From assembly GCF_029265375.1 (NCBI RefSeq), contig NZ_JAJUJJ010000013.1, positions 1-64,000 of the forward strand: a stretch of 64,000 nucleotides of DNA. Reading direction: 5' to 3'. The first letter of the stretch is position 1. Every line of letters starts with the position of its first letter. A program made the position numbers and the translations under genes. Of this stretch, positions 2,775-58,610 are shown piece by piece. The notes under the pieces are model-generated. The model made no database searches. It was not told the origin of the DNA and was given only the letters and a program-made list of their open reading frames with translations. This stretch comes from Nesterenkonia sp. Lineage in GTDB: Bacteria > Actinomycetota > Actinomycetes > Actinomycetales > Micrococcaceae.

Positions 2775-3563
2775 TCAGAATCCGGAGATAGTCTCCGGGC
2801 TGTTGACCACCACATGGTGGAAGTCTTCGGCGAATCCGCCCTCTGCGTGGATCTGCCGCATCTGCTCGGTGACGAACCCGACCATCTTCTCCGCATCGCG
2901 GTGCTGGCTGAAGTGCCGCCCCAGGGCTTCGATCTTCCGCTGCTGATATCCGGTGACGTCCACCCGGGTCTGCGCCAGGTGGCGGGGGGCTCCCATCAGC
3001 AGCAGATGCCGGATCTTGAACGGCTCCAGGCCCTCGGCAGCCAGCTCCGGATAGGCGAAAGGGTTCTCCACCGCCGGGTAGCAGGCCCTCACCACAGCCT
3101 CCCCGCACGCCAGGTGGTCAGGGTGAGATTTCTGCAGCCGGTCCCAGGCGCGCTCCGGATGGAAGCTGAGCACCGCGTCGGGCCGGACCCGCCGCATCTG
3201 GCGAACGATGCTGCCGATCAGCTCGTAGCTGGGCTCAACGAACCCGTCGCGCTCGTCCAGCAGGGTGACCTCGGAGATGCCCACCACGGCAGCGGCCTCC
3301 TCCTGCTCACGACGGCGCAGCTCAGCGGTCTGCTCAGCAGTGCGCCCGGGATCGAAGCCGCCGGCGTCCCCGGCGGTGAGCAGGCACAGCGTCACCTCGA
3401 CGCCGCGCTCGCTCAAGGCGGCGATAGTGGCCGAGGCGCCGAAGTCGATGTCATCGGGATGAGCGGCGAAGGCCAGCACAGTGGACAGCCCCAGACGGTG
3501 CTGCAGCTCATCAGGGCTGACCAGCCCGATCAGCTCGGTGGAGGGCTGCGGTGCAGTCGACAT
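2775..3563 (-). CDS. PIG-L / LmbE family N-acetylglucosamine deacetylase-like protein
   Basis: PIG-L family enzymes are zinc-dependent de-N-acetylases or amidases; in actinobacteria members act in mycothiol synthesis (MshB) or mycothiol conjugate detoxification (Mca). The metal-binding motif AHPDDID is at about residues 34-40, and the second conserved histidine block is SHPDHLACG. At 262 aa the length fits the family. The gene starts 9 bp after the stop of the HtrA-type protease gene on the same strand, so the two are probably co-transcribed. The sequence alone does not distinguish MshB, Mca or another deacetylase, so no symbol is given. Confidence 0.82.
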   Translation of the reverse strand: MSTAPQPSTELIGLVSPDELQHRLGLSTVLAFAAHPDDIDFGASATIAALSERGVEVTLCLLTAGDAGGFDPGRTAEQTAELRRREQEEAAAVVGISEVTLLDERDGFVEPSYELIGSIVRQMRRVRPDAVLSFHPERAWDRLQKSHPDHLACGEAVVRACYPAVENPFAYPELAAEGLEPFKIRHLLLMGAPRHLAQTRVDVTGYQQRKIEALGRHFSQHRDAEKMVGFVTEQMRQIHAEGGFAEDFHHVVVNSPETISGF

Positions 3564-56931: not shown

Positions 56932-57058
56932 CTAAAGCGGAGGGAGAAACCCGGCGGGCCCCGCGCCATCGCAGCGACGACGACGGCTGAGAAAAATTCA
57001 TGGGAAAAATTCAGGTTCTATGGGGTGTTCCGTCAAGGTTGGTCCTTACATTAGATAG

Positions 57059-57147
57059 TGCCTCTTCAAGGTGCGAGTGATTCACAGCCCCCGGGCCAGC
57101 GATTCAAGCGTCCCCCCCTCACGCAGCTGGTCCGGGGGCTTTCTCGT
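57059..57147 (+). ncRNA. Putative small RNA, copy 1, with C7 loop and intrinsic terminator
   Basis: A region from 57021 is homologous to one at 57721. A -10-like TACATT (57047-57052) predicts a start near 57059. The transcript would contain AAGGTGCGAGTGATTCA, then a 15-bp stem (57086-57100 with 57126-57140, one G-U pair), enclosing an inner GCGT/ACGC hairpin (57108-57124) whose loop is CCCCCCCTC, ending in TTTCTCG. Comparison with copy 2 shows one fully compensatory pair change (C-G to U-A), supporting RNA structure. C-rich loops recall the actinobacterial 6C small-RNA class, which pairs with G-rich Shine-Dalgarno regions; identity is inferred. Confidence 0.75.
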
Positions 57148-57170
57148 GCCCGCGGCCTAGACTGGGAGGC

Positions 57171-57569
57171 ATGACAGAGGGTCCGACGTCTCCGGTGCGA
57201 GCCGATGCCTGGCTGTGGTCGGTGCGGATGTTCAAGACTCGCTCGGCAGCCACTGAGGCATGCCGGGCGGGGAAGATCAAGATCGACGGCGAACCGGTCA
57301 AGCCCGCCACGAAGGTCAGCCCGGGCACGCGCATCCAGATCAGCCGGCCCGGATATGTGGTGATCCTGGAGGTGGTGCACACCCACGCCAAACGGGTGGG
57401 CGCCCCAGTGGCGCAGAAGGCCTACCGGGATCACTCCCCCGAACAGATCAGGCCCCGGGATGTGGGGCTGCCCCGCCGCGAGCGCGGAACCGGCCGCCCC
57501 ACCAAACGCGAACGCCGCCAGCTGGAGCTGCTGCGCGGCTACACCAAAGACCGGGGCGCCCACGGCTGA
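57171..57569 (+). CDS. S4-domain RNA-binding protein (HslR/Hsp15-like)
   Basis: The 132-aa protein begins with an S4 RNA-binding domain (VRADAWLWSVRMFKTRSAATEACRAGKIKIDGEPVKPATKVSPGTRI), followed by a basic tail (RRERGTGRPTKRERRQLELL). HslR-type proteins bind free 50S subunits carrying nascent chains. TAGACT at 57158-57163 ends 7 nt before ATG 57171; GGGAGG is also present, though a transcript starting that close could not use it fully. The gene is flanked by two homologous small-RNA loci. Confidence 0.9.
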   Translation: MTEGPTSPVRADAWLWSVRMFKTRSAATEACRAGKIKIDGEPVKPATKVSPGTRIQISRPGYVVILEVVHTHAKRVGAPVAQKAYRDHSPEQIRPRDVGLPRRERGTGRPTKRERRQLELLRGYTKDRGAHG

Positions 57570-57758
57570 GCCGCCGGCCAGCGGCCGGCGCCGGGGCGCC
57601 TCCAGCTCGGCAGATCCAGCGCATTTCGGCTCGCTGTCGGCTGCCGGTCACCGGGCGTTCACCCTGCAGTCACTCATTCAGAAGATTCGCGAGAAACTCA
57701 CAGGGAACTCCCAGTTGATGTGGGGTGTTCCGTCAAGGTGGGTGCGTACATTAGTAAA

Positions 57759-57845
57759 TACCTCATCAAGGTGCGAGTGATTCAAGCTCCCGGGTCAGCA
57801 TTTCTGGCGTCCCCCTCACGCTGCTGGCCCGGGAGCTTTCTCGTG
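57759..57845 (+). ncRNA. Putative small RNA, copy 2, with C5 loop and intrinsic terminator
   Basis: Homologue of the RNA at 57059-57147, offset by exactly 700 bp at its conserved promoter segment (57721-57784, about 57 of 64 positions identical). A stem pairs 57784-57799 with 57823-57838; the inner GCGT/ACGC hairpin (57807-57821) has loop CCCCCTC, followed by TTTCTCG. Relative to copy 1, C-G becomes U-A at one pair and G-U pairs are swapped at two others. The terminator also faces the end of the convergent permease gene. The 57570-57720 space contains no gene. Confidence 0.75.
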
Positions 57846-57848
57846 CGC

Positions 57849-58610
57849 TCAGGGGGTGGGAACCGCCTTGCGGATCACCACGTAGTTGAGCACCGCCAGG
57901 ATGGCCGTCCACAGCGCGGTCCAGCCGGCCAGGGACAGTGTGGTCTGCCGGGAGAACCACTCCCAGATGCTCCCCCAGCCGTCGGCTTGGTTGATCAGCG
58001 TCGCTCCGGCGAGAGTCACCACCGCCAGGACCAGGATGATCGTCCACAGCATCGGGACGCTGACCCGGCGGTAGAGGATGGACCAGAAGAATCCGATCAT
58101 CATCAGCATCAGGTTCACCACCGCGGCCAGCAGGCCGGCCCCCAGGATCCCTCCCTCGCCTTGGACCAGGAAAGGCAGGTCGAAGGTATAGGCGTGCATG
58201 CCGAAACCGTCGGTGATCCGCTCCACCCAGATGCCGAACATGAAGGCGATGCCGTAGGCGGCGGACACTACGGCGAAGGCCAGGAAGGCACCGATGACGA
58301 AGACGCGGCGGCTGTAGCTCAGCGCCATGGAGAACGGGAAAGTGTGGCTGGCGGTATAGGCCGCCATGAACAGCAGACACCACATAGCCGCCTGCGAGGC
58401 ACCCGCGTAGAAGGGCTCCGCTGCGGTGAAGGTCGCCTCGGTCTGGAAGGTCAGCCACGCGGCGATGCCGGTGGCAATAGCCCAGGCCCCGGCGAAGACC
58501 ATCAGCGGGACCCACACCAACGACGACGGGACGGCGAACTGGAGCCGGAAGGCGGCGGGAATTCTGGCGTAGCTGGACTGTGTGCTGCTCTGGGCTGCTG
58601 CGACACTCAT
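57849..58610 (-). CDS. ABC transporter permease-like membrane protein of the GntR/ABC operon
   Basis: The 253-aa protein has about six membrane helices (for example VWVPLMVFAGAWAIATGIAAWL, AVVNLMLMMIGFFWSILY, AGWTALWTAILAVLNYVVI). It is the likely membrane partner of the ATPase encoded just upstream, with ATGA overlap (58607-58610). Such YtrA-GntR / ATPase / permease operons respond to envelope stress or cell-wall-active compounds in Firmicutes and actinobacteria; substrate unknown. No conserved EAA loop is evident, as usual for exporters. Confidence 0.8.
   Translation of the reverse strand: MSVAAAQSSTQSSYARIPAAFRLQFAVPSSLVWVPLMVFAGAWAIATGIAAWLTFQTEATFTAAEPFYAGASQAAMWCLLFMAAYTASHTFPFSMALSYSRRVFVIGAFLAFAVVSAAYGIAFMFGIWVERITDGFGMHAYTFDLPFLVQGEGGILGAGLLAAVVNLMLMMIGFFWSILYRRVSVPMLWTIILVLAVVTLAGATLINQADGWGSIWEWFSRQTTLSLAGWTALWTAILAVLNYVVIRKAVPTP

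Follow-up and report, generated by a model that had tools for sequence, protein, structure and literature searches.

The locus raises the question of what two similar intergenic segments on either side of a gene for an RNA-binding protein encode, what switches them on and what they act upon. The window (the whole 64,000-nt stretch of Nesterenkonia sp. DNA that was analysed) belongs to the Nesterenkonia/Garicola group of the Micrococcaceae and contains two intergenic RNA genes at 57060-57145 and 57760-57843, where the first-pass annotation had placed them, and both fold as it had claimed. We consider it fairly probable that they belong to a PhoP-activated, multicopy family of trans-acting Micrococcaceae sRNAs of ~85 nt, whose C/CU-rich loops would block ribosome-binding sites. 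Fold and promoter array were established by comparison of copies; from the sequences we infer transcription, PhoP dependence and targets. Two covariance models were used throughout: R1, built on Nesterenkonia copies with the terminator hairpin included, and R2, which is 39 nt long and spans the -10 region and 5' module. The features of the locus are as follows.

57012-57037 (+): predicted activator region of copy 1, CAG at 57012-57014 and CAAG at 57034-57037, 22 bp apart (column conservation, 11-bp periodicity)
57047-57052 (+): -10 element of copy 1, TACATT (column counts)
57060-57145 (+): sRNA gene, copy 1, predicted +1 at G57060 (R1 match 57060-57150, E 9.8e-16; fold)
57060-57082 (+): invariant 5' module of copy 1, a GCCU/AGGU mini-hairpin followed by single-stranded GCGAGUGAUUC
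57086-57140 (+): terminator-type hairpin of copy 1, inner GCGU-CCCCCCCUC-ACGC at 57108-57124 (fold; covariation in relatives)
57171-57569 (+): gene for an S4-domain RNA-binding protein between the copies (Pfam S4, 44.3 bits; synteny)
57701-57737 (+): predicted PhoP-type array of copy 2, CAG at 57701-57703, CAG at 57712-57714 (TCACAGGGAACTCCCAG) and CAAG at 57734-57737
57747-57752 (+): -10 element of copy 2, TACATT (column counts)
57760-57843 (+): sRNA gene, copy 2, predicted +1 at A57760 (R1 match 57760-57847, E 9.8e-16; fold)
57760-57782 (+): invariant 5' module of copy 2, an ACCU/AGGU mini-hairpin followed by GCGAGUGAUUC
57784-57838 (+): terminator-type hairpin of copy 2, inner GCGU-CCCCCUC-ACGC at 57807-57821 (fold; covariation in relatives)

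The two segments are 84% identical across 129 nt, and their own genome carries exactly two copies according to both models. The module of both reads RCCUC(A/U)UCAAGGUGCGAGUGAUUC, also written RCCUC..AGGUGCGAGUGAU. The GCGT/ACGC mini-hairpin described earlier was folded within the terminator-type hairpin of each copy, its loop reading CCCCCCCTC in copy 1 and CCCCCTC in copy 2 (DNA letters); the loop of the 5' hairpin is UCUUC/UCAUC-like, and the C-rich loop occurs only in the terminator hairpin. Taken alone, the hairpins of copies 1 and 2 gave z scores of -5.8 and -7.3, with none of 200 shuffles equally stable, and on aligning the two copies we saw the compensatory C-G to U-A change and the G-U exchanges that had been reported. 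A simple scan for sigma-70 promoters and terminators returned neither a strong promoter nor a terminator at the locus, because TTGACA is absent and the U-tract is short. A small ORF in place of an RNA was rejected, since the distance from module to hairpin varies by single bases (inspection); in L111-L113, reading from the AUG of GUGAUG meets a stop after two codons.

The structure was then compared across 79 distinct Nesterenkonia copies and 61 copies of other genera, counted after removal of identical RNAs and of copies too close to a locus end; a CCT filter on the other-genera copies removed none. Twelve consecutive module positions, AGGTGCGAGTGA, were unchanged in 79/79 Nesterenkonia copies, the search having tolerated 3 mismatches. 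Because copies of other genera were selected for a module with no more than one mismatch in 12, the invariance seen outside Nesterenkonia is in part a product of that choice. The 5' module, not the C-rich loop, defines the family. When each copy was folded singly, the best fold contained the RCCU/AGGU hairpin in 61/79 Nesterenkonia and 21/61 other-genera copies; among the latter, a UCAUCA/UGAUGA hairpin around the module was favoured in 11/61 and neither hairpin appeared in 29/61. With its little covariation, this 5' hairpin is less certain than the terminator hairpin.

The terminator hairpin provided the evidence for selection on RNA structure that the first-pass annotation had asserted. A 5' arm paired with its own 3' arm at a mean of -28.9 kcal/mol, compared with -17.5 for swapped arms; the own arm was the best or tied-best partner in only 30/79 copies because related copies have arms in common. 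Among 31 Nesterenkonia copies of equal loop length, 16/20 pairs had changes on both sides, and the both-side-change cells numbered 70 against a shuffled mean of 24.7, a value that 0/500 shuffles reached. Pairing cells in the same 31 copies amounted to 83.2%, against 73.1% when shuffled and at most 58.7% when slid. (A5 comprised 31 distinct copies out of the 34 whose loop is 7 nt long, A2 59/79 copies, and A4 68 of the 97 listed references.) Some copies depart from the common plan. In genus g4 (L098, L100, L102, L123), some have a tandem duplication of the 15-nt module AAGGTGCGAGTGATG. L127 (1483-2052, minus strand) has four tandem copies ~160 nt apart with a common 5' module and four different terminator hairpins. 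The divergent copies of L196 and L198 (genus g10) and L197 (g31) have altered 5' stems, such as CCUC/GAGG, and an additional hairpin ahead of a distal C-rich stretch.

We next turn to the loops, which had been proposed to pair with G-rich ribosome-binding sites, a capacity that their complementarity is consistent with. CCCC or CCCUC lay inside a hairpin loop in 78/79 Nesterenkonia copies and 39/61 copies of other genera, counting any hairpin of the 80-nt stretch and including three flanking bases. A paralogue group with a ACCUUCUC start (exact pattern) had CCUCC in the apical region in 6/6 copies; in 5 the sequence is CCUCCUU, complementary to the Shine-Dalgarno AAGGAGG. Neither loop element was present as folded in 18/61 other-genera copies, 3 of which belong to the ACCUUCUC-start group and have CCUCC just beyond the computed loop. 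These data indicate that the C-rich loop is a frequent, exchangeable part, strongly kept in Nesterenkonia and absent from a minority of copies elsewhere.

The distribution of the RNA was sampled in its family, identified as the Micrococcaceae because Nesterenkonia belongs there. R2 (E<=0.001) matched 241/295 genomes in 30/32 genera, with 1-9 copies each; R1 (E<=0.01) matched 128/295 genomes in 24/32 genera. Among 396 genomes sampled from the order, R1 matched six, all Micrococcaceae. Of 394 genomes sampled across the class, R2 matched four from the family; its five further matches, outside the family, were marginal and partial (E 0.002-0.005). The RNA thus looks old and restricted to one family. 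A nucleotide search recovered copies in 29/30 genomes of the genus, and an exact 19-mer search of named genomes gave 22 stretches, 19 from Nesterenkonia, 1 from Garicola and 2 of Acidobacteria MAG origin; the last two (L039, L051) had 19 exact bases without promoter or hairpin and were excluded. One genome of the genus that is 99% complete (G017) has no detectable copy, yet phoP and its upstream array are present. A search of plasmid and phage collections with one other-genus copy (L114) yielded no match. Several Nesterenkonia genomes have extra TGAAGG-type copies at other sites with 3' flanks in common (L053-L062), and an integrase/transposase-like ORF lies near one of them (L056, by eye); this suggests that the extra copies are mobile. 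The family-wide spread, the invariant 5' module and the PhoP-type promoter presented below go beyond what the first-pass annotation described.

As for action, the sRNAs would target mRNAs in trans and mask their Shine-Dalgarno sequences with the C/CU-rich loop. The 5' module, in many copies a small hairpin followed by GCGAGUGAU, would give a second contact, either as an mRNA seed or as a dock for a protein, and several gene copies would raise the dose or split the targets. A search of 19 genomes for perfect complements of the 12-mer ATCACTCGCACC found none that recurs at one gene. The 45 hits all lay in 13 genomes of the genus, and 36 were sRNA copies, two of which (L244, L245) were recognised from their fetched loci; the remaining 9 were scattered, a mild excess over the 1 hit of the reversed control. 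By eye, L237-L243 among these 9 have no common gene; L246 lies inside an ABC ATPase ORF and L247 is in the own genome. With no recurring perfect complement, the module would therefore pair in shorter pieces or bind a protein.

The latter option leads to an alternative in which the RNA is a sponge: the invariant AGGUGCGAGUGAU would be the site of an RNA-binding protein titrated by many copies, and the hairpin merely a terminator. Several observations agree with it, namely a near-invariant module beside a variable loop and stem, tandem duplication of the module in the 15-nt units of genus g4, the lack of a conserved 12-mer complement among the genomes searched, and the 1-9 copies per genome. However, a pure sponge would have no need of the C/CU-rich loop that is kept in most copies examined, nor of the near-perfect anti-Shine-Dalgarno loop of the ACCUUCUC-start paralogues, and we regard this explanation as unlikely.

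The regulator of the favoured trans-acting sRNAs was sought in their promoters. The conserved promoter-like block noted earlier is genuine, its -10 columns being near-invariant across the 79 Nesterenkonia copies (T in 77, A in 76, last T in 76), and no standard -35 accompanies it. Numbered from the U of UCAAGG, column counts in Nesterenkonia showed CAG at -65 and -54 and CAAG at -32; in other genera, CAG starts formed an 11-bp ladder with peaks at -65/-64, -54/-53, -43 and -32, besides a small additional count at -73. A CAG pair of period 11 occurred in 63/79 Nesterenkonia and 35/61 other-genera promoters, any other period in at most 6. In copy 1 of the window, the outer -65 site is degenerate, leaving one clean CAG half-site and the CAAG. 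In M. tuberculosis, PhoP is described as binding direct repeats of TCACAGC whose spacer is strictly 4 bp, and as doing so more tightly when three or four motifs follow one another (PMC4832192), and the CAG half-sites of the sRNA promoters, 11 bp apart, resemble its box.

Seven matches to OmpR-type regulators were found in the own genome. The best solved match of the PhoP candidate was M. tuberculosis PhoP (285.7 bits vs 175.7 for PrrA), and a sensor-kinase-like ORF follows the gene (by eye). A CAG array was found just upstream of phoP in 28/30 loci returned from 48 genomes, with ~1.1 expected from the flanks; other periods reached at most 3, and with the pattern reversed, period 11 gave 1 and the highest count was 7, at period 9. 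Within the own genome, phoP alone of the 7 regulator genes has the array, judged in approximate upstream windows. The half-site closest to the -10 lay 18 nt from the last base of this element in 78/139 sRNA promoters and 18/28 phoP promoters; for the latter a -10 pattern less strict than TAnnnT was required, and 8/28 had no match to it. PhoP is called the activator mainly because phoP promoters have the same array and -10 spacing, and the sRNA is probably an RNA arm of PhoP, which would bind the CAG array in its 11-bp steps and switch the sRNAs on. Possession of PhoP was rejected as a predictor of the sRNA: orthologues were found in 48/48 genomes tested, among them 20 in which R2 has no match and four from other families, and therefore do not discriminate sRNA carriers. 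The array also stands ahead of phoP in some sRNA-less genomes. The phoP promoters of L206 (~3070-3110, minus strand) and L207-L236 have an 11-bp CAG array and a predicted -10 so near the start codon that the phoP mRNA may be leaderless and autoregulated.

Several OmpR-type regulators bind repeats with 11-bp spacing, and the same RNA genes might be activated by another of them, such as MtrA. The own genome, with its seven such regulators, does encode an MtrA (NF040689, 383.7 bits, cut-off 300). Against this, the half-site is similar to the PhoP motif, and the array precedes phoP in nearly all loci returned while marking no other regulator gene here. Activation by a different regulator is, in our judgement, rather improbable. 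Searched genome-wide with at most 1 mismatch, TCNCAG-N5-TCNCAG gave 113+102 sites against 64+78 for the reversed pattern, a mild enrichment. Nine exact sites are in the own genome, and ORFs were listed around three. Two other exact TCACAG-type 11-bp repeats in this genome (L148 1501-1517; L149 1501-1517, minus strand), the former ~60 nt from the start of an ORF resembling a secreted serine hydrolase (by eye), are possibly further PhoP or MtrA targets.

We also examined the neighbourhood of the S4 gene. Its Pfam match upholds the earlier description of the middle gene as encoding an RNA-binding protein; a weak Hsp15 NCBIfam match fell under its cut-off. ligA lies upstream of the sRNA/S4 region and an ABC-transporter operon downstream. 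Thirty distinct S4 loci were compared; all but L094, which is from genus g4, belong to the Nesterenkonia group. Among these 29 loci, a GCCTCTT start was found in 20/22 copies upstream of S4 and an ACCTCAT start in 22/25 first downstream copies. Such position-specific starts across species mean that the twin arrangement predates the split of these species; the two window copies are old paralogues by this sequence evidence, not the recent duplicates that the first-pass annotation had considered. Some genomes have a third tandem copy and others extra copies elsewhere. In another genus, the S4 gene and sRNA region are preceded by a SAM-IV riboswitch (L111 853-976, L113 909-1032).

Copy 1 ends ~26 nt ahead of the S4 start codon and this arrangement is common in Nesterenkonia, so that the RNA could be imagined as a cis-acting leader or attenuator of the S4 gene, not a free sRNA. 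But copy 2 is built alike, and with its 3' end meeting a convergent ORF it has no leader role there; nor would such a leader account for the four tandem copies of L127 with their differing terminators. We consider a leader very unlikely. For many other copies the fetched stretch contains no S4 gene, and the S4 gene is treated here as a neighbour whose protein may or may not have a special tie to the sRNAs. The ORF at 57849-58610 (minus strand) adjoins an ABC ATPase gene and probably encodes the membrane partner of that ATPase; Pfam and NCBIfam gave nothing for it at E<=0.001.

In Rfam 15, a tRNA was the sole match in the window, the sRNA genes staying below the gathering score of every family, and 18 loci in other genera gave two SAM-IV riboswitches and nothing else, both lying apart from the sRNA genes. 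Among the matches listed from open-access PMC there was no work on Nesterenkonia sRNAs and, near the top, nothing pertinent on Arthrobacter or Micrococcaceae sRNAs; the module letters appeared there only in one unrelated human-genetics paper. The family is apparently absent from catalogues. 6C RNA has two hairpins, each with a C-rich loop. The Micrococcaceae sRNA is like it a small actinobacterial RNA with C-rich loops, as far as 6C is described in PMC9569102. The kinship suggested by the first-pass annotation failed in covariance-model searches of the own genome, the locus and the order sample: RF01066 had no match in the own genome and none at E<=10 at the locus, and of the 43/248 order-sample genomes that it matched, one (G131, under the cut-off) was of Micrococcaceae. 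The sole R2 match in G131 was weak (E 6.9e-5). The window copies have only one C-rich-loop hairpin, in the terminator, and distribution and architecture differ as well, which leaves membership in or descent from 6C with next to no likelihood.

To our knowledge, few actinobacterial sRNAs are conserved beyond one genus, and how sRNAs find their targets in Hfq-less bacteria is, as far as we know, still an open question. The present family is short, spans most sampled Micrococcaceae genera and has a clear predicted regulator, and it could become a tractable model of a PhoPR-sRNA circuit. More speculatively, and with considerable doubt on our side, it might be a core PhoPR output, in which multicopy sRNAs bear exchangeable anti-Shine-Dalgarno loops, the module docks an actinobacterial RNA-binding protein, and loop diversification tunes sets of mRNAs under one sensor.

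Three known systems invite comparison. The streptococcal csRNAs are described as CiaR-dependent, homologous, multicopy RNAs under one two-component system, with a CiaR direct repeat (TTTAAG-N5-TTTAAG, 11-bp period) at their promoters and a conserved unpaired region plus terminator hairpin, and pairing with translation starts has been proposed for them (PMC3091779). The Micrococcaceae RNAs share the multicopy state (2 homologous copies here, 1-9 per genome in the family), the unpaired region and terminator hairpin, and an 11-bp direct repeat at the promoter, which would be a response-regulator site to judge by the array it has in common with phoP promoters. They differ in phylum, repeat (CAG instead of TTTAAG) and RNA sequence, and also in having the anti-Shine-Dalgarno-like element in the terminator apical loop and an invariant 5' module. 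LhrC1-5 of Listeria are likewise multicopy, are reported to need the LisRK two-component system, and block a ribosome-binding site through UCCC motifs, rich in C, that lie in loops and in a single-stranded stretch (PMC4132741). The likeness lies in copy number and C-rich loop motifs, two-component control and ribosome-site blocking being predicted here; LhrC, controlled by LisR, is an Hfq-binding RNA with three redundant motifs, and no kinship in sequence was seen between the two, which were likened by description. Mcr7 of M. tuberculosis is described as a PhoP-dependent ncRNA of ~350 nt at the strongest PhoP binding site, with expression restricted to this species, reported repression of tatC translation and predicted pairing over the tatC ribosome-binding site (PMC4038636). 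Compared by description, the Micrococcaceae sRNA is ~85 nt, present in 1-9 copies and family-wide, with PhoP control predicted from its promoter array. This suggests that the PhoP-to-sRNA link of Mcr7 has a counterpart elsewhere in the phylum. We assign the family to none of the three; by analogy, csRNAs, LhrC and Mcr7 appear to be its closest counterparts in way of working.
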